Positions 7,546 through 25,019 of a stretch of DNA of 43,083 nt are shown here, one piece after another. Every line of letters starts with the position of its first letter. Positions within the stretch are counted from its first letter, which is position 1. The notes beneath the pieces were generated by a model. The model was not told the origin of the DNA. It did not search any database and was given only the letters and a program-made list of their open reading frames with translations. The DNA lies in the NCBI GenBank assembly GCA_018969045.1, contig JAGWZB010000004.1, positions 1 through 43,083 on the forward strand. The letters are read 5' to 3'. Made by a program: the position numbers and the translations under genes. Origin of the DNA: Planctomycetota bacterium (GTDB lineage: Bacteria; Planctomycetota; Planctomycetia; Pirellulales; Pirellulaceae).

Positions 7546-9174
7546 ATGCATTCAAACGACCCAAACCCAAAGATGTGGATCCTCGGCAGCCTTGCATGCT
7601 GCTGGTTGGTCGCTTGGACTCATGCCCAAGAGCCCCTGGACCCAATCAAGGAACTTCAAAAAGAGCAAAAAGCATTAGCGACCCAGTATGCCAACCTCGA
7701 AGAGATCTTTCTTCGGATGAGTCAGCTCGAAGCCGCTAGCAACCCCACACGCGCTGCCCTTTTGATGCAGGCAGCCCAGATGAGCAAGCAGCTTGCTACC
7801 CAGCAACGCATGAGCCAAGCCAGTGAATACTTAGCCAAAGGCCAATACTCCCGCGCGATCCCAGAACAGGAAGCCAGTCGCGACAACCTCAAGAAACTGC
7901 TCGAGCTTCTTCAAAGCGAGAATCGATCCTCTCGGATCAAAGACGAGCGCAAACGGCTCGAAGATGTGCTCAAGGACATTCGCAGGATCGAAAATATCCA
8001 AAAGGCCACACGAGGTCGAACCGAGGCAGGCCAAGATAAAGAGAGTGCAGCCAAGGACCAAAGCGACTTGGAAAAGCAGCTCCAAACCACGGAAAAGGAC
8101 CTCAGCGACAAAGACAAGTCCGACAAAAAAGATCCGTCCGATCCGTCCGATCCGTCCGATAAGTCCGATAAGTCCGATAAGTCCGATAAGTCTGATCCGT
8201 CCGATAAGTCTGATCCGTCCGATAAGTCTGATCCGTCCGATAAGTCTGATCCGTCCGATAAGTCGGATCCGTCCGATCCGTCGGATAAATCCGACCAGAA
8301 AAAGGATCCTAGCAAGCCACCAAGCAAGGAGGATCAAGCCCGCGAACGCGTCCAAAAAGCGCGCCAGCGCATGCAAAAAGCCGAAAAGAACTTGAAAGAC
8401 AACAAACGCAAGGAGGCGATCGATGAGCAGCAGCAAGCCGAAGAGGAATTGCAGCAAGCGATCGCAGAACTCGAAAAGATCCTGATGCAACTTCGCGAAG
8501 AAGAAATCGAAAGAACCCTCGTGGATCTTGAGACCCGACTGAAACGGATGGCCGAATGGGAGAAGACCATTCGCGATCAAACCGAGAAACTCCAGAGGCT
8601 ATCGGGGGACGAAAAGGACCGGCAGTTGGAGATCCAAGCCAACAAGCTCTCGACCGAGCAACTCAAGGTGGCGATGGAGGGCCAAAGAGCCATGTTGCTG
8701 TTAAAGGATGAAGGATCGAGTCAGGCTTTTCCCGAAGCTCTCGAGCAAGTGATCCGCGATGCTCAGTTGGTCGTTACCCGACTAGGGGCCGCCGATGTAT
8801 CGACCAATACCCAGTCGATCCAGGAAGAGATCTTGGGCGCTCTTGATGAGATGATCCAATCCCTGCAAGCTGTGCAAAAGAAACGCGATGATGAAAAGAA
8901 ACAACGTCAGAACAACGGACCCAACCAAGGTGGTGGTGGGCAGCAAGAGGATTCGCTGGTCGGAAAGATTGCGGAACTACGATTGATTAAAACCTTGCAG
9001 ATGAGAGTCAACCGAAGAACCGACCGACTAGCCGATCAATCCAATAACAATGAGGATTTAGTCGGCCAAGTCAGTGATCCGAGGCTACAAGAGGAACTCA
9101 GAGAGTTGGCCACAAGGCAGGAAAAGATTCAGACCGTTACCAGAGATATTTTGCTTGAAGCGGCTAAGGACTAG
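7546..9174 (+). CDS. Secreted coiled-coil protein with an SDP/SDK tandem repeat tract
   Basis: Signal-peptide-like N-terminus, heptad-rich Gln/Glu/Lys sequence, internal 'DPSDPSDPSDKSDKSDKSD...' repeats. Confidence 0.65.
   Translation: MHSNDPNPKMWILGSLACCWLVAWTHAQEPLDPIKELQKEQKALATQYANLEEIFLRMSQLEAASNPTRAALLMQAAQMSKQLATQQRMSQASEYLAKGQYSRAIPEQEASRDNLKKLLELLQSENRSSRIKDERKRLEDVLKDIRRIENIQKATRGRTEAGQDKESAAKDQSDLEKQLQTTEKDLSDKDKSDKKDPSDPSDPSDKSDKSDKSDKSDPSDKSDPSDKSDPSDKSDPSDKSDPSDPSDKSDQKKDPSKPPSKEDQARERVQKARQRMQKAEKNLKDNKRKEAIDEQQQAEEELQQAIAELEKILMQLREEEIERTLVDLETRLKRMAEWEKTIRDQTEKLQRLSGDEKDRQLEIQANKLSTEQLKVAMEGQRAMLLLKDEGSSQAFPEALEQVIRDAQLVVTRLGAADVSTNTQSIQEEILGALDEMIQSLQAVQKKRDDEKKQRQNNGPNQGGGGQQEDSLVGKIAELRLIKTLQMRVNRRTDRLADQSNNNEDLVGQVSDPRLQEELRELATRQEKIQTVTRDILLEAAKD
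8131..8295 (+). repeat. 9-bp tandem minisatellite, units TCCGATCCG / TCCGATAAG / TCTGATCCG
   Basis: Read directly; in frame within the coiled-coil CDS, encoding DPS/DKS triplets. Confidence 0.95.
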
Positions 9175-9883: not shown

Positions 9884-12094
9884 TTGCCAACCACTGTGTC
9901 TGAACCTTTGCATGAACAACTTGCTCAAATCGACGCGGAGTATCGCGCCGCGGCGCTTGCTGATGGATCGAGCCTCCAATCCTTGCTCCTTGAGCGTGAG
10001 CGTGTTTTGGGCATGCGTTCAGGGGATTCGCTAGCGACCCAGATTGAGCAAGCCCTTGCGCAGGCTCAAGCGATGATCGAGTCTCCTGCATGTCCGATCG
10101 TTGCGGTTCTGGGGATGCTCAATGCCGGTAAAAGCTCTTTGGTAGCAACTTTTTTGACACCAGCTCGTGCTCCGGATGCAGGTCGGGTGTTGATTGGTTC
10201 AGCCAACACCGAAGGAACGCACCGATTTGTACTTTGGTTGCCGGAGACTTGGAAAAGCAACCCTGTGATTTGGGAATATCTTTCGCAGCGCATGGCCCAG
10301 GTCTTTGGAAGTCAACCCGAGGAGCTTGCCAGCGATCCACAGCAAGCGGCCTTGCAGTACAACGATCTTGGAGTCAGGGAAGTGATCGGTCAGGATGGAA
10401 CCCCCCTGATGCGAAGCGCCTTGGAGATACCATTGGTAGCCACGGACCCGCAACTCGATCGACTTGGAATCGCATTGATGGATTGTCCAGATGTTCAAAC
10501 CGGCATGATGTCTGGCTGGCAATCACAAACACCGACGCTTCGCTCAACGCGATTGGACGAACTTTCGATGGCGGCAGCTCAAGCTCGCTTCAGTGTTTTG
10601 GAGCGATCTTCGACGATCTGCAGTGCTTACATCGTCGTTCTTCCGGCAAACGCCATGCACGATCAGACGGTAACGCGACTGCTGAAGATGCTTGAAATGA
10701 AAATGCCCCATGTGCAACGGATTCTTGCCGTCAACCGAGTGCCTCGCAAATACACCTCGATGGAAATCTCGCAGGAAATGCAGTCCTTGTATGGTTTCGC
10801 CAACCCGAGTCGTATCTACATGGCTTACCATTTCGAAGGTCCAGAGAGAAGAGAAAAGCTCCAGAGCATCCCTAGCGAACTGTCCGATAGAAGCGACATG
10901 CTCTTGCCGGCGTTCTACCGCGTGGACCAAGCGCCCGTTCCCCAGCCACCTGAACCCGTGAGCAACCAAGCGTGGATGCTTCGTTTGGGAGAGCAACTAC
11001 AAGGCAATTCCCTATTGGCTGATGCGATCGAATCCTCTCTTACTACGCTTAGGATCACGATCCAGCGCGGTTTGCAGAATTCTCACGAGTGGATCGAGCA
11101 GAGCAATCGACGATGGAGGGTGTTGCACCAAGTGATCGCGCAGTCTTGTTTAGACTTTTCTCTCGACCCAAACGCTCCGGCTTCGAGTCCAAAGATACGA
11201 TTGCAAGCTTCACGGCAGGTTGTCCAGCAGATTGCAGAGTCTCTTGAAAGGACTGCGCCTTGGTGGGCCAAACCTGGCCGTTGGATGCAGCGGTTGGCAC
11301 AGGCCAGCAAAGACTCAGTCGGCTATGCGACTTCGTGGATGAAAATGCCTTCGTGGATGCTCGATCGTGGAAATGAGGTCGGACAGTGGGCGCGCAGTCG
11401 ACTGCAGCGGGGGGAAAGTGGCAAGGTTGTTACGGCCGACGTACTAGTCGATGCATTGGCCAAATGGGATAAAGAGGGAATTCTCAAATTGGACCTTCGC
11501 CGACAAGAGCGGGAGACTATTCGAAGTGCCTGCCAGAGGGCAATCACGCGGTTTCAAGCCGAGAGTTCGACTCAGTTGGATCCCCGGCAGGTCGATCAAT
11601 TGACTCTTCGGTTATGGGAGCAAATGCCGATGAGCAAGCGGATTCTCAGCGGTGTAGCACCAGCGGGTGTTCTATTTGCTCCCTTGCTTGCGGTGATCAT
11701 GATCCCGCTGGATTTTGGGGGTTCATCGGTGCTTGTATTCGCATCCTTGAAGGAACTACTTTTTGCTGGAGCGGCGGGTTTTGGATTGATGCTAGCCAGT
11801 GGCGATGGCATGCCGCAGATGGCTGAGTCCGAGTCGGCGTGGCAACAACTCTCGGATCTTGTCGCCGTGCTGACCGATGAATTGGGCTTGGAACGCAAGT
11901 CGGCAAGCGAACCGACACACGTGGTCTTAGGGACCCATTCGCGCACTCTCGCAGCAAGCAGTATTGAGCCGATGAAGCAGCCTGAGTGCTGTGTCGATGG
12001 AGTGCCTTCGAATCTGCGAGCAACGCAGGCACCGGTTTGGGACTGCTTGGAACGCAACTTGGATCGCCTGCAACAAAACACACCTGGGAGATAA
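9884..12094 (+). CDS. Dynamin-like membrane-associated GTPase (first of pair)
   Basis: P-loop 'GMLNAGKSS', 'TEGTHRF' (G2-like), 'MDCPDVQTG' (G3-like), 'AVNRVP' (G4-like), C-terminal hydrophobic hairpin; TTG start. Confidence 0.65.
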   Translation: MPTTVSEPLHEQLAQIDAEYRAAALADGSSLQSLLLERERVLGMRSGDSLATQIEQALAQAQAMIESPACPIVAVLGMLNAGKSSLVATFLTPARAPDAGRVLIGSANTEGTHRFVLWLPETWKSNPVIWEYLSQRMAQVFGSQPEELASDPQQAALQYNDLGVREVIGQDGTPLMRSALEIPLVATDPQLDRLGIALMDCPDVQTGMMSGWQSQTPTLRSTRLDELSMAAAQARFSVLERSSTICSAYIVVLPANAMHDQTVTRLLKMLEMKMPHVQRILAVNRVPRKYTSMEISQEMQSLYGFANPSRIYMAYHFEGPERREKLQSIPSELSDRSDMLLPAFYRVDQAPVPQPPEPVSNQAWMLRLGEQLQGNSLLADAIESSLTTLRITIQRGLQNSHEWIEQSNRRWRVLHQVIAQSCLDFSLDPNAPASSPKIRLQASRQVVQQIAESLERTAPWWAKPGRWMQRLAQASKDSVGYATSWMKMPSWMLDRGNEVGQWARSRLQRGESGKVVTADVLVDALAKWDKEGILKLDLRRQERETIRSACQRAITRFQAESSTQLDPRQVDQLTLRLWEQMPMSKRILSGVAPAGVLFAPLLAVIMIPLDFGGSSVLVFASLKELLFAGAAGFGLMLASGDGMPQMAESESAWQQLSDLVAVLTDELGLERKSASEPTHVVLGTHSRTLAASSIEPMKQPECCVDGVPSNLRATQAPVWDCLERNLDRLQQNTPGR

Positions 12095-12103
12095 TTCAAT
12101 ACG

Positions 12104-13855
12104 ATGGAAGATCCATTGCAGATGGTAGAGCGGATCGAGATTGCTTCGCAGCAGTTGCTCGGATCGCATGAAGTGCGATTGCAGATCGCGCGTTGGTGCG
12201 ACGAGTTTCGACAAGCAGCCAACGATATCATGCATGACCGAGGTGTTTCACTTCCTTGTTTTGGGATCATTGGAGCCAAGGGCCAAGGAAAGACCTGGAT
12301 CGCACGGCAATTGGTTCTCGATCCTGCGATTGCTCAGCTTTTGCCAAGCGGTGTTCTATCCAAAGAGGCGACGACAAGGCTCCACTGGATCGGCCCGTCA
12401 GCACCGGAGGCATTGGACAATTCTCGTGAAATCTATCTTGCGTGCCCATCCCAGAGCATGTTGGATTTCCAGAAACCTTACATGGTCCTTGACACACCCG
12501 GGTACACCGACGAAGACCCATCGGCTGCGGCGATCGCCAAGGAAGCTATGAGCTTAGCTCCGATCAAGTTGCTCGTAGCCCGACGGGATCAATTGCGCAG
12601 TGCCATTCATGTGCAACTGGCGGCCCTTACCGAAGGATCGGTTTGCTTGCCGATCATCACTTGCGTACCTCAAAACGATTCTGGGAGTCTCCAGCGCGAT
12701 ATCCAGTGGTACAGTGCCGCCTTAAGTTCCAGCGCACCTGGAACACGATTTCTAGAACCGATATTGGTGCCGGACTTTGAAGCCCTAGGAGATGAAGCTC
12801 GAATTGCCCAAAGGATGCGACTGGATTTGCAGGCTCGGCTTGCTCATGAGGACCTCAAGGTAGCATCAGCGACCAAATCAGCCCGATTGCGAGCAGCTAG
12901 CGATCGATTGCGCAAGCGTGTTTCTGAAGCGATCGAGAATCAGGTGCCTGAATTGGCTTGGGCAATATCCCAGTTGGCAAACACCGCCGATACGTTACCC
13001 AGCCAAGCGATTGAAATGGTGTTGGGATCGAAACAAGTTTTGCGGAATGCGATCCGAGATCGGATTCGGGGTGAGCTCATCTCGGGAACAGGACTTTTTT
13101 GGTTCCCTTACCGAACGATTCTCGGGATTCTTGGGTTCACGCATGGGGCATGGGATCGGTTGATTCTCTCGATGACAGGTAGTTTGCCATCGATCTTTGG
13201 TACGTTTATGACCTGGGCCAAGAACCTCAGTGCGACTCGAGCCGCGCATCAAGAGTTGCAGGAAGGGATCAAAGACTATTTGACCAAGCAGATACAGGAC
13301 CGGCTCTTACCTGCCCAGCAGGAGTTTTATCGAGCGATCGATCGGATTGGAGGGGCAAGCCCACAGACACATCGTATCGATTCGGGGTTACGAGTTCGCA
13401 TGAGCGGGATCGATGCGCTTCAATTACAAGCTCGCGGAGTCTTTGACGAAACACTCCATAAGTATCGCATTCCACGATGGTTATTACAGACGCTTGGCCT
13501 GCTTGCTTCGCTGGTATTTTGGGGGTTAATGGCAGGCCCAATCCTTGCGATTTATCGCCAGTATTTCTTGGCAACCATCCATGCTTGGAGCGAAGGGACC
13601 AAGGATTTATCGGAGTTCCCAAGTCCCAAAGCGACGATGATGCTCACTGCTTTTGGAATCTCGACCCTGCCGGTTCTGATCCTTGCTATGTTGGTGATGA
13701 GTTGGTTTCAGAGGGCCAAGCGACTCGACGCGATTGCCGAAGAGATTTACTCTGCCGAGTTGCAAAAAGTCGAATCGCTCAAGCGCGATGGCACGATCAA
13801 ACTTTACTACGAAGACCCCTTGCTCCAAAGCGCCGAGTATTTGACTTCGTTGTAG
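12104..13855 (+). CDS. Membrane-associated GTPase (second of pair)
   Basis: P-loop 'GIIGAKGQGKTW', G3 'VLDTPGYTDED', two C-terminal TM segments; starts 9 bp after the first GTPase. Confidence 0.65.
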   Translation: MEDPLQMVERIEIASQQLLGSHEVRLQIARWCDEFRQAANDIMHDRGVSLPCFGIIGAKGQGKTWIARQLVLDPAIAQLLPSGVLSKEATTRLHWIGPSAPEALDNSREIYLACPSQSMLDFQKPYMVLDTPGYTDEDPSAAAIAKEAMSLAPIKLLVARRDQLRSAIHVQLAALTEGSVCLPIITCVPQNDSGSLQRDIQWYSAALSSSAPGTRFLEPILVPDFEALGDEARIAQRMRLDLQARLAHEDLKVASATKSARLRAASDRLRKRVSEAIENQVPELAWAISQLANTADTLPSQAIEMVLGSKQVLRNAIRDRIRGELISGTGLFWFPYRTILGILGFTHGAWDRLILSMTGSLPSIFGTFMTWAKNLSATRAAHQELQEGIKDYLTKQIQDRLLPAQQEFYRAIDRIGGASPQTHRIDSGLRVRMSGIDALQLQARGVFDETLHKYRIPRWLLQTLGLLASLVFWGLMAGPILAIYRQYFLATIHAWSEGTKDLSEFPSPKATMMLTAFGISTLPVLILAMLVMSWFQRAKRLDAIAEEIYSAELQKVESLKRDGTIKLYYEDPLLQSAEYLTSL

Positions 13856-13868
13856 ATGAGGTGGTCAA

Positions 13869-16199
13869 TTAGCCAATCATGCCACGAAGAATTCTTGCAG
13901 CGGTTTGGGCACCGAGTCTTGGCAACAGAGCCGTGTGAGCGATCCCCGATACCACCTTGGTGATGTCGTGATCGACCTTGGATTCCTCACTCCATTGACT
14001 CCCATCGGCACTGGTGATGTAAATCGATAACGTGCGATGCCCACTACCAGGCCGTTCTCCGACCACATGCATCACCTGCAGTCGACCTTCTCGCCCACCG
14101 AGCATCAATTCCCCAAGACGATACCCTGCTCGGACTCGTCCAGACCGCATCACAAACACCTCCGGAGCGACTCGTCTGCCATCGGACTGCAACTCAGACC
14201 TAAGCTTCTCGATCAGTTCCACCGCCTGATCGTCGGTCGTGCTTGCTAGAGCATTCAGACCATCGGACAGAACGATCAGGGTGTCATACTTTTGACCGTA
14301 CTGTTGCTTGAGTTGCTCGAGTCGCTCGACTGAATTTGGGTGCAACTGTTCGCCTGAACTCGGATGGAGGATGTAATCGTTGCGATCGCTCGACAGTGTT
14401 TCGACGAGAAACCCTCCGGAGATTTGTCGCTCGTATCCTTCAGGCAACTGAGCCCAAATGCACTTCTTGGCATCGTTGTAAATACGATGGATATGTTGAT
14501 CCAAGTCCTCTGGTAAGGCCGAAATACTTTGGCCGTGACCTTGGGAGATAAATACCCCTCGATCCCGAACTTGTTGGATCTGAACGTTGGCATGAGCGAG
14601 GATCTCTTGATCGGATCGCGGGTCTAATTTGCGACGGCAATAAGCCAAATAGACCCAGGATGGATCTCCAAAATGCTCGGTGGGGTTTCCCTCTTGGTCG
14701 ATCACTCCAAGCGCTTTAAAAAACTCCCACATCGCATCATTGACGCGGTACCCGAATTTTTGACGGATGTGGACATGATCATGGTAGCCGGTCGTCAGGT
14801 ACCCAAGCATCGGATCGATCCGCGTGGGCAGAGCCATCAAATACCCAGGATTGGCGGGCATGATTTGATCGATGCACCAACCCAAATCATCAAGAGATAC
14901 CTCCATGTGCAACGTCGTGCACACATCGAGACCGATCATCAATCCATGCAGCTTGCCCATGACGATGTCTTCCAAGCAACATCGAACGAGCTGATCTGGG
15001 TTTCTGAAGACCTCTGGACCGATGAATCCGGCCACATCGTTTAGGTGCACCCAAGCATCGGAACCTTCGCCTCGCTGCTGGCGAGCTTGCGAAAGGACTC
15101 GGCTTAGACTCCTAGCGAGGCCATACTTTCGAGACTCATGCACAAGCATATCGGTCCCAAAACCATGGCCGTTGGTAAAATCAGCCCCCTGCCCCGTTTC
15201 AAAATAAAGCCCGAATTTGCCGGTCTTGTCTTGCGCGTGCCTGAGCATCTTGTCGATAGTCACATCGAAGGTCTTATTGGCAGCATCAGAGCCCGCAATA
15301 CTTTGGAACCAAAGCGAGGTGGAACCCTTCTGCTGCCGCTCCAGTTGAGCTTGGATATCGATGTGTGCAAGCACACAATGAGGGAGTGCCGAGCTGATAC
15401 CAAACGTATCCAAGACATCCTTGAGGGTCGCTTCGACCGACGCCACCGAATCAGGTTCGCTAGAGACAGGATTCGTTCCGACAAGAACATCCCCCACCGC
15501 GTAGGAAAACGCATTAAAAACCTGCCAGCGGATGTCCTCTGGATGATCGGTTGGGGAGTTCGGTTGGATACGAGCCCCCATGTAGCCTTTGGCTCCGAGC
15601 TTCGAACCTGGTAAGGGATTAAAGACCTTACTGCCGACTTGAATCAACTCGGGATTGCTCATGAGCTTGACCACACATGCGATCACATCACTGGATAAAT
15701 ACGGACAAATCCGGTGGATCTGGTTTTCGTTCCGCTCAAGCAAAAAGACCTTTAGTTCCCCAAGGGTCCAGTCCCTAAGCGGTTTGTTCTCAGAAGCCTT
15801 CGAGTCGTCCAATCCTTGCTCTGATGGCAAACCGAGCGAGCCCCTGATCAGTTCGAGCATGCGGTCTTCGAAGGGAGGATGTTGATCGATCTGCTGGATC
15901 GTCGTTCGATCCAGAAGCTCCCTTGCATGCTGCCTTTGAGCCGGGGAGCTTGCCGCAATGCCAATGATTTCGTCACCCTCTTTGTATTCGTTGGCCGCTC
16001 CCAAAACCTTGCGATACAGATCGATATCCCATCGTCCTGCGATGCGATGCACGTAGCCGATCACGTCTTCGTTGACGACTGGATCCTGAGCTTGGGTTGC
16101 CCCGGAAATCGCTACCCCGGAAATCTTGGCCATTGCCGCACCAGCTAGGCTGGTTTGTAATACTCGGCGACGAGACCAAAGGATGTTTGCGTTTAGCAT
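13869..16199 (-). CDS. Ethanolamine ammonia-lyase, EutB-EutC fusion with Tat-like leader
   Basis: EutB motifs 'KVLGAANEYKEGDEIIGIAA', 'ARIQPNSPTD', 'FQSIAGSD', 'YFETGQGADF', 'GFIGPEVF', 'GLDVCTTLHM'; EutC motifs 'VLSDGLNALAS', 'VGERPGSGHRTLSIYIT'; N-terminal 'SRRRVLQTSLAGAA...ATQAQD'. Confidence 0.92.
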   Translation of the reverse strand: MLNANILWSRRRVLQTSLAGAAMAKISGVAISGATQAQDPVVNEDVIGYVHRIAGRWDIDLYRKVLGAANEYKEGDEIIGIAASSPAQRQHARELLDRTTIQQIDQHPPFEDRMLELIRGSLGLPSEQGLDDSKASENKPLRDWTLGELKVFLLERNENQIHRICPYLSSDVIACVVKLMSNPELIQVGSKVFNPLPGSKLGAKGYMGARIQPNSPTDHPEDIRWQVFNAFSYAVGDVLVGTNPVSSEPDSVASVEATLKDVLDTFGISSALPHCVLAHIDIQAQLERQQKGSTSLWFQSIAGSDAANKTFDVTIDKMLRHAQDKTGKFGLYFETGQGADFTNGHGFGTDMLVHESRKYGLARSLSRVLSQARQQRGEGSDAWVHLNDVAGFIGPEVFRNPDQLVRCCLEDIVMGKLHGLMIGLDVCTTLHMEVSLDDLGWCIDQIMPANPGYLMALPTRIDPMLGYLTTGYHDHVHIRQKFGYRVNDAMWEFFKALGVIDQEGNPTEHFGDPSWVYLAYCRRKLDPRSDQEILAHANVQIQQVRDRGVFISQGHGQSISALPEDLDQHIHRIYNDAKKCIWAQLPEGYERQISGGFLVETLSSDRNDYILHPSSGEQLHPNSVERLEQLKQQYGQKYDTLIVLSDGLNALASTTDDQAVELIEKLRSELQSDGRRVAPEVFVMRSGRVRAGYRLGELMLGGREGRLQVMHVVGERPGSGHRTLSIYITSADGSQWSEESKVDHDITKVVSGIAHTALLPRLGAQTAARILRGMIG

Positions 16200-18272: not shown

Positions 18273-19763
18273 ATGGCTCGTGAAACGGTATCGAAATTCA
18301 TTTCGTTACGTCGCAATCATCCAGCTTGGACGTTGCTGGCATCCCCCAAAGGCCCATTGATCCTAGCGAGCCTAAAGAGCTTGATAGAGTCCAGTCCAAG
18401 CGGTGTGGTATTCGAGGAAGCCGTTGAACGGCTCGCAAGCGTCTTTGCCGACTATGCCAACGACTCCGAGTTTGATCTTGGAGACGATCACCCTTTGACA
18501 GCCCGACGAGAGATTCGCCAATGGATCAAACGCGGATTGATCGTCGAACGCGATGGCAAAATCTTGGCAACCGACGCGTTCCAAAGAGCCTTGCTGTTTC
18601 TATCTTCGCTCGAAGATCAGACGATGACTTCGACAGCCTCCAGGCTCGCGACGGTGCAGCGGGCAATCGAGTTGCTTGAAACCCAGTTGAGCCGCAGTCA
18701 AACCGACCGCGAGCGAGCCATTCAAGCTCGCATCGATATGCTCACCGAAGAACTCAAAGCGGTCCAAGCAGGCGATTTCGATGTTCTCGATGGCAAGAAA
18801 GCCGAAGAGGGAATCCGCGAAGTCTATCAATTGGCAATGAGCTTGCAGGCTGATTTCCGACGCGTCGAAGACTCTTATCGCGAGGCGGATCGCCAATTGC
18901 GCCAGCGGATCATCTCGGAGAATCAGAATCGAGGTCAGATCGTCGACGAACTCCTCAATGGGCACGAACAACTCGTCCAGACCATCGAGGGCCAAGTCTT
19001 CGAGAGCTTTTACGCGCAGTTGGTAAAATCCTCAGAACTTCAGGAGATGAAATCCCGTATCCGCTCGATCCTAGAAAACATCAACACCGACAAGGCTTTG
19101 ACGCGAAAGCAACGCGCAGAACTCAAGCAACTCGTTTCACGTTTGGTCTACGAGTCCGAGCGAGTGATCCAAGCCCGTTCGCACAGCGAGCGCGATGTTC
19201 GAGGCTTTCTCAAGTCCGGCTTGGCCAATGAACAATTACGAGTCGGTGCGCTGCTGCAGGAAATCTTCCAAGCCGCACTGGAGCTGGATTGGCAATCCAA
19301 TAATATTCGCAGGACCGATAGCCCTTTTCCTCCGCTTGCGATCTCCGCTGGAAATCTACCTCTGATCGAACGACTCCTTCCAAAACAGATCGAGAGCCAA
19401 CAAGTATCCGAATTGGAATTGGATGAATTTCAAGCCGACCCAGCCGAAATGGGCGATGAGTTCTGGAGGGCTTATCGCGCCATGGATCGCGAAGAACTGT
19501 TTCGAAAAACGATTGAAACGTTGGGAACATCCGGTAAGAAATTCACGATTGGTCAGTTGGCCAAGCAGATAGAGCCAACTCATGACCTAGAGACTCTGGC
19601 ATTTTGGTTGGCCATGGCCAGGCAAGCGGGACTGGAACTAGGCCAAGGAGTTCAAAGCATCGATCTGAGCGACCCGGACGACGGAGACACACGCTTCGAG
19701 GTGCCTTGGGTGGAACTCTCCGGCCCGGATGTTCAAGATTTGAAAGCAGAAAGCTTGGAATGA
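18273..19763 (+). CDS. jetA: Wadjet protein JetA (DUF3375)
   Basis: 496 aa; winged-helix-like N-terminus 'HPAWTLLASPKGPLILASLKSLIE', 'LTARREIRQWIKRGLIVERDGKILATDAFQRALLFLSSLED', coiled coils; position in the jetABCD operon. Confidence 0.9.
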   Translation: MARETVSKFISLRRNHPAWTLLASPKGPLILASLKSLIESSPSGVVFEEAVERLASVFADYANDSEFDLGDDHPLTARREIRQWIKRGLIVERDGKILATDAFQRALLFLSSLEDQTMTSTASRLATVQRAIELLETQLSRSQTDRERAIQARIDMLTEELKAVQAGDFDVLDGKKAEEGIREVYQLAMSLQADFRRVEDSYREADRQLRQRIISENQNRGQIVDELLNGHEQLVQTIEGQVFESFYAQLVKSSELQEMKSRIRSILENINTDKALTRKQRAELKQLVSRLVYESERVIQARSHSERDVRGFLKSGLANEQLRVGALLQEIFQAALELDWQSNNIRRTDSPFPPLAISAGNLPLIERLLPKQIESQQVSELELDEFQADPAEMGDEFWRAYRAMDREELFRKTIETLGTSGKKFTIGQLAKQIEPTHDLETLAFWLAMARQAGLELGQGVQSIDLSDPDDGDTRFEVPWVELSGPDVQDLKAESLE

Positions 19764-20485
19764 GCAATATATTTGATCGATTTGCAAATGAGCCACCCGA
19801 TCAGGCCGAAGAATGCGATTCGCTAAGCCAAAACGCATCGGAACACACCCCAGCTCAAGGGCCTGACTCGAAGCCCAAAGCCGGATCTCCCATGGAGCTG
19901 AAAACAGCCGTTCAGGAATTGCTAAAACAAGGATTCATCGAAGAGTCTCAGCGTCGCGATCTGTTTCGAAGTGTCAGCCTTCAGCGCGACGCGATCGAGC
20001 AAGCCCTTGAACCTCTAGACCTCTGTTTGCGGGTCGATACACACCGAGGAGTTGCTTTTCTGACCGTATCCAAGCTGGATATTCCAGACCCCAGCGATCA
20101 AGAGGGATGGAATCATCCCCTGGTTCGCAAGCAACGATTGACGCTCGAACAATCCCTCCTGGTTGCAATCCTTAGGCAGTCCTTCGCCATGCACGAGCAG
20201 GAGTATGGTGTTGGACAATCGGCAGCAAAACTATCGATCGACGAACTGCTACCGATCTTCATGACCTACTTTGGAGATTCAGGCAGCGATTCAAAGAATG
20301 AGAATCGACTATTGCAACTACTCGACCAGCTCAAAACACATGGGATCGTCTCCGAGGTGGATTCCAAGCAGGAAATTCTCATTCGTCCACTGATCGCGCA
20401 TCTTGCCAACCCGGAGTCTCTTTCGGCATTGCTAGCTGCACTGAACGAAAAAAAGGGGACTGAATTGTCCGAAGGAGACCAGTGA
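19760..20485 (+). CDS. jetB: Wadjet protein JetB (DUF4194)
   Basis: ATG at 19760 overlaps the jetA stop (ATGA); 'LTLEQSLLVAILRQSFAMHEQE...LSIDELLPIFMTYFG' pattern of DUF4194. Confidence 0.88.
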   Translation: MSNIFDRFANEPPDQAEECDSLSQNASEHTPAQGPDSKPKAGSPMELKTAVQELLKQGFIEESQRRDLFRSVSLQRDAIEQALEPLDLCLRVDTHRGVAFLTVSKLDIPDPSDQEGWNHPLVRKQRLTLEQSLLVAILRQSFAMHEQEYGVGQSAAKLSIDELLPIFMTYFGDSGSDSKNENRLLQLLDQLKTHGIVSEVDSKQEILIRPLIAHLANPESLSALLAALNEKKGTELSEGDQ

Positions 20486-23400
20486 TGGCAAAGAGAAGCA
20501 AGATTCAGGACTCGAAGCCTCAGCAAGACCAGGCGCTTACGCAAGAGCAATCGGAGCCTGAAGAAATCGATGCAATGCTGGTTCCCAGCACCGACACGTC
20601 GTTTGTTCTGAGCCGGCTGGAGGTCTATAACTGGGGACCATTCCGAGGGATGCACCGGGCGGACTTTGACCTGCGAGGGACAGCCATAATCGGTCCAACT
20701 GGCAGTGGCAAAACGACGTTGGTCGATGCGCTGATGACTCTGCTTGTTTCTCAGCCACGCTACAACCTAGCTTCGACCGGTGGCCATGAAAGCGATCGCA
20801 CTTTGATCGAGTATGTGCGTGGGGTCTTGGGTGGGGATGGGGCTGATGGCCGTCAGGAAGTAGCTAGACCGGGCAAGACCATCAGTGGCGTTTGTGCGAC
20901 GTATGTGGGAGGCAAGCAACAGGTCAAGTTGGCCGGTATCTTTTGGACCGAAGGTCCCGGCAATTCGGCGGATGACTTAAAACGCCGTTGGGTCTTTTCG
21001 ATGGCACCCGAGCAGAACTTTGACGGATGGCTTCGGATACTTCATAACGACGGGATTCGCGATTTGCTGAAGATGGGTCGCGAGACGGCGAATTTGAGAT
21101 TCTTCGAAAGCAAGCGCTCGTACTTGGAGCGCATACGAAAGTTCTTTGATGTCAGCGAGAACGCTTTTACGCTTTTGAATCGGGCCGCGGGACTCAAGCA
21201 GCTCAACAGCATCGATGAGATTTTTCGCGAATTGGTGCTCGATGATCGCTCGGCGTTTGATCGAGCATTGGAGGTTGCTGCGGAGTTCGACAACCTTTCG
21301 GACATTCATGCCGAATTGCAACTTGCCCAGCGGCAGCAGGATTCCTTGATCCCCGTGCAGGAAGAGTACGAGCGACTGCTCAAATCGCAGCGCAAGACTC
21401 AAAAGCTTCAAGTACTTAAGCGGATTTTGCCGATTTGGTTTGCTCGAATCGCTCATCAAAAGTGGGGAGAGGAATCCAGTAAACTGCAAGCGATGATCGA
21501 GCAAAGCCAAAAGGCTTTGGCCGAACTTGAGCACCAAGCTGCATCGGCTAGATCCATGGTCGATACACTCCGAGAGCGCTATCTGGAGCTAGGTGGCAAC
21601 ATCATCGGCGAGCTGGAAAATACGATCGCAGCCCAGCGCAAGCTGGTCGAGGAACGGACCAAGCAGGCTCGCGTGTACCAACAGATGGTCGCCCGCTTTG
21701 AGCTGAGCGAACAACTCGATGAAAACACCCTGAAAGCCAACCAAAACCAACTTCAGAAACAGCAGCAAGCCGTGCAAGCCCAACGCGACACTTACCAGTC
21801 GACCACGCTTGGCTCGATGGCCAAGTTGCAAGGTTTTCAGCAGCAGCTCGACGAACTTACCGAAGCGATTCGCAGGGTCAAACAAAGGCCTGGGTCCAAT
21901 ATCCCACCTCACTTCCAAGACTTCCGCAGCGAGCTTGCCCAGCAGCTTTCCATGCGGGATTCCGATCTCCCATTCCTTGCAGAGTTGATCGAAGTCAAGC
22001 CGTCGGAATCCGATTGGCGCGGGGCTATCGAAAGAGCGATCGGTTCGGAACGTTTAAGGGTATTGGTCCCTGAAGTTCGGATCAAAGAGGCTTTGAAATG
22101 GGTCAATAGCCGGGACAACCGATTGCATGTACGGTTGCAGTCGGCCCAGGCAATTCCGCAGCGATCCAACCTGTTCGAGGATGGCTATGTGAAGAAGCTT
22201 AACATCAAGCAACATCCGCTTAAGGATGCTGCATTGCAATTGCTGGCTTCGAGAGATTTGCACTGCGTGCGATCGGCTGAGGCGTTGAAGGACACCGAAC
22301 ACGGACTGACCCTCGAAGGCATGATATCAGGTAAGCATGGGAAGTTCGAGAAGCAAGATCAACGTCGACTCGATCAAGACTGGATGACCGGGTTTGACAA
22401 CAAAGACCAGCTCGATGCGATTGCCAAACAATGCGTCGAATCTACAGCTATGGTGGCCAACTGCAAAACAGAGGTTCAGAAGTCTCAGCAGCTACTCAAT
22501 CAATCCCAAGACACCCTGCGGGTCATCGAAGCATTGCTGGGCTTGGAGTTTGCGACGATCGATTTGCCTAAAGCCCAGGCCGACTTAGACCGTTCGATTC
22601 GGCGACTCGATGGACTCCTAGATCCGACCTCCGATGCGAGCTTGGCCAAATCCAACTACGAGACAGAGAACCGCAAGCTTGAGTCGATTCGCCAATCCAT
22701 CACCGATCAAAAATCAGACATCGCAGTCTATAGCGACAAACGCAACTCGGCAGATCAATCCTGTGAGGATGCTCGCAAGCGGGCTGAAAATGGACTTGCG
22801 CAAGACGAAGAAGCCTTGGCAAACAAGCATCTAAAGATCGATGACGGAACTCCTGCTCAGCGAATATTCGACTACGAGAGACGTTATTCCAAGGAGATCG
22901 AATCGCAGCTTGAAGAGCAATTCATACGTGATGCGGATATTGAGCAACAACTCGTACGCAAGATGGAGATCGCAAAAAGGGTCGACACCGGTGCTCTGAT
23001 CGAAGTCTCCTCGAGGATCGACGAAGTCCCGGTTTATCTTGAAAGACTACGCGTACTGACCGAAGAAGCATTGCCCGAGAAACGAACTCGTTTTTTAGAG
23101 TACTTGAACCGATCTAGCGACCAAGGGGTTACGCAATTGCTTGCCAGTATCGACGAGGAGGTCGATGCGATCGAGGAACGCATCGCCGAGTTGAATCACA
23201 CGCTGGTCAAAGTGGACTTTCGTTCGGGACGATATTTGCAGTTATTACCTCAGCGCATGAAGGACGAGCGATTGCGATCGCTCAATATCGCCATGCAAAA
23301 GGTCAGGCATGCGGCTTTGAAAGATGATGGCGGCGAGGGTCACTTCAAGGCGTTGCAGGAGATGGTAGCGATTTTAAAAGAGGCGGGAGAAAACCGACGA

Positions 23401-23841
23401 TTGCAGGGTTCCAAAGCTCTGCTTGATCCTCGTTTTCGTTTGCAGTTCTTTGTGGTCGAAGTCGATCGCAAGACCGCTGATCGATCCCCTCCGAGGACCG
23501 GCTCCCAAAGTGGTTCCGGTGGCGAGAAGGAGTTGATGGCTAGCCACATCCTGACTGCATCGCTAAGCTATGCGCTGTGCCCTCCGGCAGCGACCCGGCC
23601 GCTCTATGGAACGGTGGTCTTGGACGAAGCCTTTTCAAAGAGTTCTCCATCGGCAGCAAGCCGGATCATCGAAGCGCTGCGTATCTTCAGTTTGCATCCC
23701 ATTTTTGTGACTCCCAACAAGGAGATCGGATTGCTGAAGAAACACACCCGCAAAGTGATTTGCGTTCAAAGGCCAGGCAAAGAAGCAAGCTTGGCCTCCA
23801 TTTCCTGGGAGAAGCTCGAGGAAATTGCCAAGGGTCAGTAA
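20485..23841 (+). CDS. jetC: Wadjet SMC-like ATPase JetC
   Basis: Walker A 'GPTGSGKTTLVDALMTLL', signature 'SGSGGEKELMASHILTASLSYAL', Walker B 'GTVVLDEAFSKSS', long central coiled coils; ATG overlaps the jetB stop (TGATG). Confidence 0.94.
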   Translation: MAKRSKIQDSKPQQDQALTQEQSEPEEIDAMLVPSTDTSFVLSRLEVYNWGPFRGMHRADFDLRGTAIIGPTGSGKTTLVDALMTLLVSQPRYNLASTGGHESDRTLIEYVRGVLGGDGADGRQEVARPGKTISGVCATYVGGKQQVKLAGIFWTEGPGNSADDLKRRWVFSMAPEQNFDGWLRILHNDGIRDLLKMGRETANLRFFESKRSYLERIRKFFDVSENAFTLLNRAAGLKQLNSIDEIFRELVLDDRSAFDRALEVAAEFDNLSDIHAELQLAQRQQDSLIPVQEEYERLLKSQRKTQKLQVLKRILPIWFARIAHQKWGEESSKLQAMIEQSQKALAELEHQAASARSMVDTLRERYLELGGNIIGELENTIAAQRKLVEERTKQARVYQQMVARFELSEQLDENTLKANQNQLQKQQQAVQAQRDTYQSTTLGSMAKLQGFQQQLDELTEAIRRVKQRPGSNIPPHFQDFRSELAQQLSMRDSDLPFLAELIEVKPSESDWRGAIERAIGSERLRVLVPEVRIKEALKWVNSRDNRLHVRLQSAQAIPQRSNLFEDGYVKKLNIKQHPLKDAALQLLASRDLHCVRSAEALKDTEHGLTLEGMISGKHGKFEKQDQRRLDQDWMTGFDNKDQLDAIAKQCVESTAMVANCKTEVQKSQQLLNQSQDTLRVIEALLGLEFATIDLPKAQADLDRSIRRLDGLLDPTSDASLAKSNYETENRKLESIRQSITDQKSDIAVYSDKRNSADQSCEDARKRAENGLAQDEEALANKHLKIDDGTPAQRIFDYERRYSKEIESQLEEQFIRDADIEQQLVRKMEIAKRVDTGALIEVSSRIDEVPVYLERLRVLTEEALPEKRTRFLEYLNRSSDQGVTQLLASIDEEVDAIEERIAELNHTLVKVDFRSGRYLQLLPQRMKDERLRSLNIAMQKVRHAALKDDGGEGHFKALQEMVAILKEAGENRRLQGSKALLDPRFRLQFFVVEVDRKTADRSPPRTGSQSGSGGEKELMASHILTASLSYALCPPAATRPLYGTVVLDEAFSKSSPSAASRIIEALRIFSLHPIFVTPNKEIGLLKKHTRKVICVQRPGKEASLASISWEKLEEIAKGQ

Positions 23842-23873
23842 AGAGCCAAACGCCAAGAGTGGGAAAATCATTC

Positions 23874-25019
23874 ATGAAATCCCCTGCAGAATTGAGGATC
23901 AAGCTAAAACGGCAGTGGGAAAACAATGCCTGTCGCGAAGCCAGACTCATGGCCATCGCAGGTGCTTGGCCTGTATCGCTCTGGATCGGAAAACCGACAT
24001 CGAGCAAGATCAAGAATCAACTCGATGAACTCAAGAGGCATGTGGAAGCTTGGCGTAAAGTGACCATCGGAGATGTCTTATGGGATCAGGTCTCTTCCCG
24101 ACACACAAGCCAGCCTATCGACGTCCCCCTGGTATGGCGATTGAACAAGCCTACTGAGTGGATCGATGCGATCGCAGACAAGCAGGTACGGGCCGAGTTT
24201 GAGGCACTATCGAAATTGGTACAACACTCCCCTGAGGTCTTTCGCAGTTTGCTTGTACGCAAACGATCTTTGTGGAGTAGCAAACCGATGGACGAAGTCA
24301 TCTTGGCTGCAAAGGTCGCGATGAGTTTGGAGCCCGGATGCGCACGGGGCCAGCCACTGCGAACGTTATCGATCGGGGGGATCGATACGAAATTCTTCGA
24401 GCGCCATGAGCGATTGATCTTGGAGTTTCTCGATGCAAGGTTCGAACGGCAACCCAGTGAGCTTGGGCTAGAGACATTTTTGGGTGCACCGCTTGACGCT
24501 GAGCACTGGCTGCTTGTGGTCGATTTGGACCAAGGACTATTGCCTTACGAGAAGATGCGGGTCAAATCGACTGATTTGATCAAACGATCACTGCCTGGGA
24601 AGAGGTTGTTGGTTGTGGAAAACGAATCGTCACAGCATCAGCTATGCCAATTACCCCAGACGCTCGCAGTGCTGGGTTGCGGTTTTGATTTAACTTGGAT
24701 GCAGGCACCGTGGCTAAAGGACAAGCAGGTTGGATACTGGGGGGATATCGATACGTGGGGATTGCAGTTTTTGGCAAAAGCCAGGCTAGCGGTACCACAG
24801 CTCGACCCGCTCATGATGGATGCAGAAACCCTCGATCAGCATCAAAGCTCCGCAGTCTGCGAACCGATTCGAGCCGATTCGATCGTTCCTGAGGGGCTCA
24901 ATCTGGCAGAATCCAAACTGTTTCAACGATTGTTCATCGAACAACGAGGTCGGTTGGAGCAAGAGTTTTTACCCCGGGAACTGGTCCATCAGAAACTTAA
25001 GCGTTGGTGTGGCCTGTGA
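23874..25019 (+). CDS. jetD: Wadjet TOPRIM-type nuclease subunit JetD (DUF3322/DUF2220)
   Basis: ATG at 23874 in frame with the ORF; 'VENESSQHQLCQLP' and 'YWGDIDTWGLQFLAKAR' match the TOPRIM core; follows jetC by 32 bp. Confidence 0.9.
   Translation: MKSPAELRIKLKRQWENNACREARLMAIAGAWPVSLWIGKPTSSKIKNQLDELKRHVEAWRKVTIGDVLWDQVSSRHTSQPIDVPLVWRLNKPTEWIDAIADKQVRAEFEALSKLVQHSPEVFRSLLVRKRSLWSSKPMDEVILAAKVAMSLEPGCARGQPLRTLSIGGIDTKFFERHERLILEFLDARFERQPSELGLETFLGAPLDAEHWLLVVDLDQGLLPYEKMRVKSTDLIKRSLPGKRLLVVENESSQHQLCQLPQTLAVLGCGFDLTWMQAPWLKDKQVGYWGDIDTWGLQFLAKARLAVPQLDPLMMDAETLDQHQSSAVCEPIRADSIVPEGLNLAESKLFQRLFIEQRGRLEQEFLPRELVHQKLKRWCGL

Follow-up and report, generated by a model that had tools for sequence, protein, structure and literature searches.

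One open reading frame in the 43,083-nucleotide stretch of planctomycete DNA analysed here (the window) probably encodes an adenosylcobalamin-dependent ethanolamine ammonia-lyase that belongs to a distinct single-chain EutBC subfamily and is exported in folded form by the twin-arginine (Tat) system. The domains, the fold, the pocket residues, the fusion and the cross-phylum conservation of the leader were established by comparison, whereas export of the protein, its loading with cofactor and its activity are inferences; a probability of roughly 0.62 is attached to this reading. The wider view, towards which we lean only slightly, is of a multi-phylum family of Tat-exported single-chain ethanolamine ammonia-lyases, lipid-anchored in Myxococcota, which would be the first adenosylcobalamin radical enzyme family working outside the cytoplasm and would scavenge nitrogen and carbon from ethanolamine without its prior uptake. 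In titles and abstracts, no publication was found that describes export of an adenosylcobalamin enzyme or a Tat-leader fused EutBC family, nor was any paper found that pairs 'ethanolamine ammonia-lyase' with 'twin-arginine'; many subscription journals were not covered in either case.

Domain architecture and active site of the fused protein

The first-pass annotation had described a fused 776-aa EutB-EutC frame, and both domains were matched by Pfam models (EutB PF06751, E 3.4e-130, 435 bits against a cut-off of 25; EutC PF05985, E 2.8e-26, 92.7 bits against a cut-off of 25.8); the strand of the gene had to be corrected to minus (Table 1). The frame begins at the first ATG past an in-frame stop situated nine codons upstream. 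The NCBIfam EutB subfamily model was passed with 565 bits (cut-off 554), and the NCBIfam EutC equivalog model, with 72 bits and a cut-off of 230, was not reached by the fused ORF. This ORF contains the sole EutB match and the sole EutC match in the source genome, a draft assembly of 5.0 Mb in 589 contigs. Two genes for separate alpha and beta subunits are not present here, both parts lying in one frame, and separate subunits are a trait of the characterised EutBC enzymes rather than of the lyase chemistry. The linker between the domains stands in place of the N-terminal region of stand-alone EutC.

Table 1. Coordinates of the EutBC gene, its parts and the adjacent gene within the window
Feature	Position	Strand	Basis or remark
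Single-chain EutB-EutC ORF, predicted ethanolamine ammonia-lyase	13869..16199	minus	776 aa; stop codon 13869-13871
Predicted Tat leader, residues 1-39	16083..16199	minus	Leader conservation, strict Tat rule; TIGR01409 at 16113-16178
EutB (alpha) domain, residues 62-508	14676..16016	minus	Pfam; Foldseek 3abo_A TMt 0.88
Linker joining both Pfam domains, residues 509-577	14469..14675	minus	Helical, confidently modelled (AlphaFold)
EutC (beta) domain, residues 578-774	13878..14468	minus	Pfam; Foldseek 3abo_B / 7xrm_B TMt 0.72-0.73
PQQ_2 (BamB-like) beta-propeller protein, N-terminal hydrophobic segment	16210..17664	minus	PF13360, E 1.9e-14

An AlphaFold model of the 776-aa protein was obtained with a pLDDT of 89.1 and a pTM of 0.89, the leader being disordered (pLDDT < 50 for residues 1-34), and the model was matched by Foldseek to the crystal chains of E. 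coli EutB (TM 0.88 by target length) and EutC (0.72-0.74). Residues R160, Q162, N193, E287 and D362 of E. coli EutB, which we take from crystal structures to form the ethanolamine pocket, correspond to R210, Q212, N243, E334 and D425 of the window protein; all five are unchanged throughout an alignment of 44 sequences that span several phyla. Similarly, R206 and E228 of E. coli EutC, residues of the cobalamin site as placed by crystal structures, correspond to R688 and E715, again invariant in the 44 aligned sequences. The RIQPN motif that had been noted in the first-pass annotation was confirmed at residues 210-214.

The predicted Tat leader and its conservation

The N-terminal leader, MLNANILWSRRRVLQTSLAGAAMAKISGVAISGATQAQD, is present as the first-pass annotation had quoted it. 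It consists of an n-region (MLNANILW), the motif SRRRVLQ at residues 9-15, an Ala/Gly-rich h-region and an AQA-like end, and meets the pattern of Tat substrates (an S/T-R-R-x-F-L-K-like motif, a moderately apolar h-region and a polar/Ala end). When the source genome was scanned with the TIGR01409 Tat-signal model the leader reached 12.6 bits and so fell short of the curated cut-off (16.7 bits), as do many other putative Tat leaders encoded there. The single sequence alone would therefore not settle the Tat assignment; conservation does. A search of full-length proteins with the same model, which retrieved two of 24 members at E <= 10, was uninformative because the model is short.

Across 24 aligned homologues R10 is invariant and R11 is at least 90% conserved, with the rest of the leader varying in sequence and length. 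A strict rule was applied to a larger set, requiring R-R-x-apolar followed by a 13-residue stretch that is apolar on average and contains no Asp, Glu, Lys or Arg. This rule is passed by 95 of 106 distinct relatives against 3.85 expected from shuffling the letters of each leader, a ratio that is descriptive and not a probability since the relatives share kinship. Six of the 11 misses keep the arginine pair, their apolar stretch being slightly interrupted, and the Leeuwenhoekiella leader, also a miss, reads SRKNFL followed by a lipobox-like NGC. A recognisable leader is absent from four of the 106 (three myxococcal copies and one Phycisphaera MAG). The strict rule detected no Tat-like leader in any of nine controls: six EutB proteins that planctomycetes encode as a stand-alone subunit, and three proteins from a second fused clade described below.

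Six clear myxococcal Tat leaders (L108, L111, L112, L126, L133 and L139) end in a lipobox cysteine approximately 17-18 residues past the arginines, this arrangement being seen in Archangium, Myxococcus and Pyxidicoccus copies; weaker planctomycete candidates from a regular-expression list were left out of this count. The myxococcal leaders have the appearance of Tat-lipoprotein signals, which would be senseless on a cytoplasmic protein, and at the level of sequence they are independent evidence for export. Judged from the conservation described above, the leader is under selection. The Tat-like signal proposed for the window protein is thus upheld by an arginine pair conserved across phyla and by these putative Tat-lipoprotein variants. 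TatC is present in all 12 relatives tested, and the tatC gene of the source genome starts close to the end of a contig, which truncates it.

Distribution of the fusion and phylogeny

The EutB profile was run against 241 genomes from the family of the source genome and matched in 70, mostly to open frames of approximately 750-830 aa. Open fused EutB-EutC frames, with lengths of about 750-800 aa, were present in about 60 genomes (roughly a quarter). A profile built from 24 fused proteins revealed more fused proteins across Planctomycetota. In a named genome collection it matched no fewer than 576 encoded relatives, of which 80 were kept. These 80 include members from Planctomycetota, Myxococcota (Archangium, Myxococcus, Pyxidicoccus), Bacteroidota (Leeuwenhoekiella polynyae), Gammaproteobacteria, Acidobacteria and Aminicenantes; the taxa of some are draft-bin assignments to be read cautiously, which does not affect the several isolates. 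Since the window comes from a draft assembly (589 contigs), one might suspect that faulty assembly or gene calling created the fusion. Independent genomes refute this, as open fused frames occur not only in the 60 or so family genomes but also in genomes completed as a single contig and in cultured Myxococcota, and the suspicion can in practice be set aside. The EutB-EutC fusion first read from the window is genuine, found in several phyla and not unique to the source genome.

In the tree the Tat-leader fused clade is set off from every cytoplasmic EutB by branches of length 2.8 and 1.6 with 100/100 support, and it forms a deeply separate, apparently unreported subfamily. The second fused clade (L040, L043, L047, L181 and L182, from Pirellulaceae and other Planctomycetota) resembles the window protein in carrying EutB and EutC in one ORF of approximately 740-770 aa, but groups with canonical EutB with 100/100 support, across the longest branch of the tree from the Tat-leader clade. 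Unlike the window protein, the three members checked have no leader, and unlike the window gene, those of this clade lie in an operon with EutA and EutH. As inferred from this tree, which is unrooted and has long branches, the fusion probably arose twice.

Two observations were made on leaderless proteins. In the EutA-EutBC-EutH cluster of the second fused clade (L040:6751-11728, L043:7086-9386, L047:8333-10612) the EutB catalytic residue Asp362 is replaced by Ala, the region reading GMAPCYTLH as against GCDCCYTNH with other pocket residues kept, and these proteins are possibly lyases for another substrate. Some Myxococcota encode a leaderless member of the exported-type clade (L144:8001-10202, L145:8001-10175, L148:8001-10175), in two instances sharing a genome with a Tat-lipoprotein copy; such members possibly represent a return of this clade to the cytoplasm.

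Genomic context, alternative readings and proposed function

The first-pass annotation had seen neither eutA nor shell genes. The absence of eutA extends to the whole source genome, in which EutH was not found either, whereas that of shell genes holds for the window only, since four BMC shell-domain matches lie outside it on contigs C560 and C120 of the source genome (G000). This genome probably makes a microcompartment unrelated to the EutBC gene, and the linkage of EutA, EutH and shell genes to eutBC that marks the eut microcompartment pathway is not met. Missing EutA is no obstacle, as A. baumannii EutBC functions without it (PMC9426561). The absence of EutA was also considered as a mark of export and rejected, genomes with stand-alone cytoplasmic-type EutB being without EutA as well. 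A gene for a PduO-type adenosyltransferase (PF01923) is present in the source genome. The PQQ_2 gene lies 10 bp upstream of the EutBC gene on the same strand and is kept adjacent in the nearest relatives only, so that a partnership is not established. Apart from this propeller no conserved operon partner recurs among 40 clustered family loci and 80 further loci listed, neighbours differing in almost every genome, and therefore no pathway can be read from gene context; no conserved partner points to ethanolamine. No cobalamin riboswitch or other Rfam RNA was found in the window.

Several readings other than an exported ethanolamine ammonia-lyase were weighed. The leader could be a relic or a misread start, with the enzyme cytoplasmic like other EutBC and translated perhaps from M23; the score under the TIGR01409 cut-off, the leaderless myxococcal copies and a ribosome-binding signal ahead of the ATG that appears weak by eye are compatible with this. 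We nevertheless regard it as improbable, since the arginine pair is kept upstream of M23, the next methionine, in nearly all homologues despite a diverging leader, which contradicts a start downstream of the leader, an outcome named beforehand as refuting export, and since the strict-rule excess and the myxococcal lipobox cysteines also stand against it. Targeting to a bacterial microcompartment, as with the enterobacterial EutC N-terminus, finds support in the BMC-domain matches on the two other contigs but is very hard to maintain when shell genes are not near the EutBC gene, the fusion lacks the N-terminal region of EutC, and the conserved element is an arginine pair with an apolar stretch, with lipoboxes in Myxococcota, and not an amphipathic helix.

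A possibility that we think doubtful but cannot dismiss is that the exported protein is no longer an ethanolamine ammonia-lyase and instead has another amino alcohol or a diol as its substrate, or serves a different corrinoid-binding function, scavenging being one example. The long stem separating the Tat-leader clade from all cytoplasmic EutB, the identity of only about 33% between window EutB and E. coli EutB and the lack of eut neighbours all favour it. In addition, of the 97 alignment columns that do not vary in the canonical sample, 27 are altered in most of the Tat-leader clade, some of them near the active site and including Tyr365 to Ser/Thr and Ser292 to Ala, so that the substrate may differ and be, for example, another amino alcohol. 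However, the invariance of the five pocket residues and of the EutC R206 and E228 equivalents is not expected of a non-catalytic binder, and an exported ethanolamine ammonia-lyase remains the preferred reading.

For such a lyase, the chain would fold and take up adenosylcobalamin in the cytoplasm, a gene for a PduO-type adenosyltransferase being present as noted above, and the folded enzyme would then be exported by the Tat system. Following cleavage of the leader, which like export, loading and lyase activity is inferred in the absence of experimental data, the enzyme would be left in the periplasm or, in Myxococcota, anchored to a membrane as a lipoprotein. Outside the cytoplasm, ethanolamine derived for example from phosphatidylethanolamine head groups would be converted to ammonia and acetaldehyde, both of which would then enter the cell. 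Fusion of the subunits would allow one signal peptide to export both in a fixed ratio via a translocon for folded proteins, and may be a solution found in nature to the problem of moving an enzyme of two subunits across the membrane as a single folded entity.

The window protein shares both domains, the fold, the pocket residues and EutC R206/E228 with the cytoplasmic or microcompartment EutBC of E. coli and Salmonella (PDB 3ABO, 7XRM), but is one chain rather than the product of two genes, carries a Tat leader and has no EutC N-terminal region, and its genome has no EutA and no EutH. The A. baumannii system is similar to that of the window in needing neither EutA nor a microcompartment and in having a PduO-type adenosyltransferase elsewhere in the genome, whereas its subunits are separate and cytoplasmic with no EutC N-terminal signal reported (PMC9426561). 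Reductive dehalogenases are corrinoid enzymes exported by Tat, and the respiratory enzymes (PceA) thereby resemble the proposed EutBC in crossing the membrane by this route (PMC10624902). Unlike EutBC, PceA has a base-off corrinoid, a Co(I) mechanism and iron-sulphur clusters, belongs to an unrelated family and performs no adenosyl radical chemistry. A corrinoid enzyme exported by Tat therefore has a precedent, although an adenosylcobalamin radical enzyme exported in this way would be new.

To our knowledge, adenosylcobalamin radical enzymes are regarded as confined to the cytoplasm, the compartment in which their cofactor can be synthesised, shielded and exchanged. If a conserved lyase of this kind is indeed exported, it would have to be explained how the cofactor is inserted beforehand, how it is renewed outside the cytoplasm and how the enzyme lasts when it cannot be reactivated. 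Tat-exported corrinoid enzymes would then no longer be limited to the reductive dehalogenases, and there would be a route to the use of membrane-lipid ethanolamine outside the cell. Hosts in culture (Gimesia-type planctomycetes, Myxococcus, Archangium and Leeuwenhoekiella) make the prediction directly testable.

Three further features of the window were observed. A Wadjet anti-plasmid system lies at 18273-25019 on the plus strand, with DUF3375 (JetA), a small ORF in the JetB position, a MukB/SbcC-like ATPase (JetC) and JetD. Two adjacent large ORFs of 736 and 583 aa at 9884-13855, also on the plus strand, look by eye like membrane-associated GTPases and have no Pfam match. An 18-bp tandem array of approximately eight copies at 8131-8286, within an ORF at 7546-9174, encodes a DPSDKS repeat.
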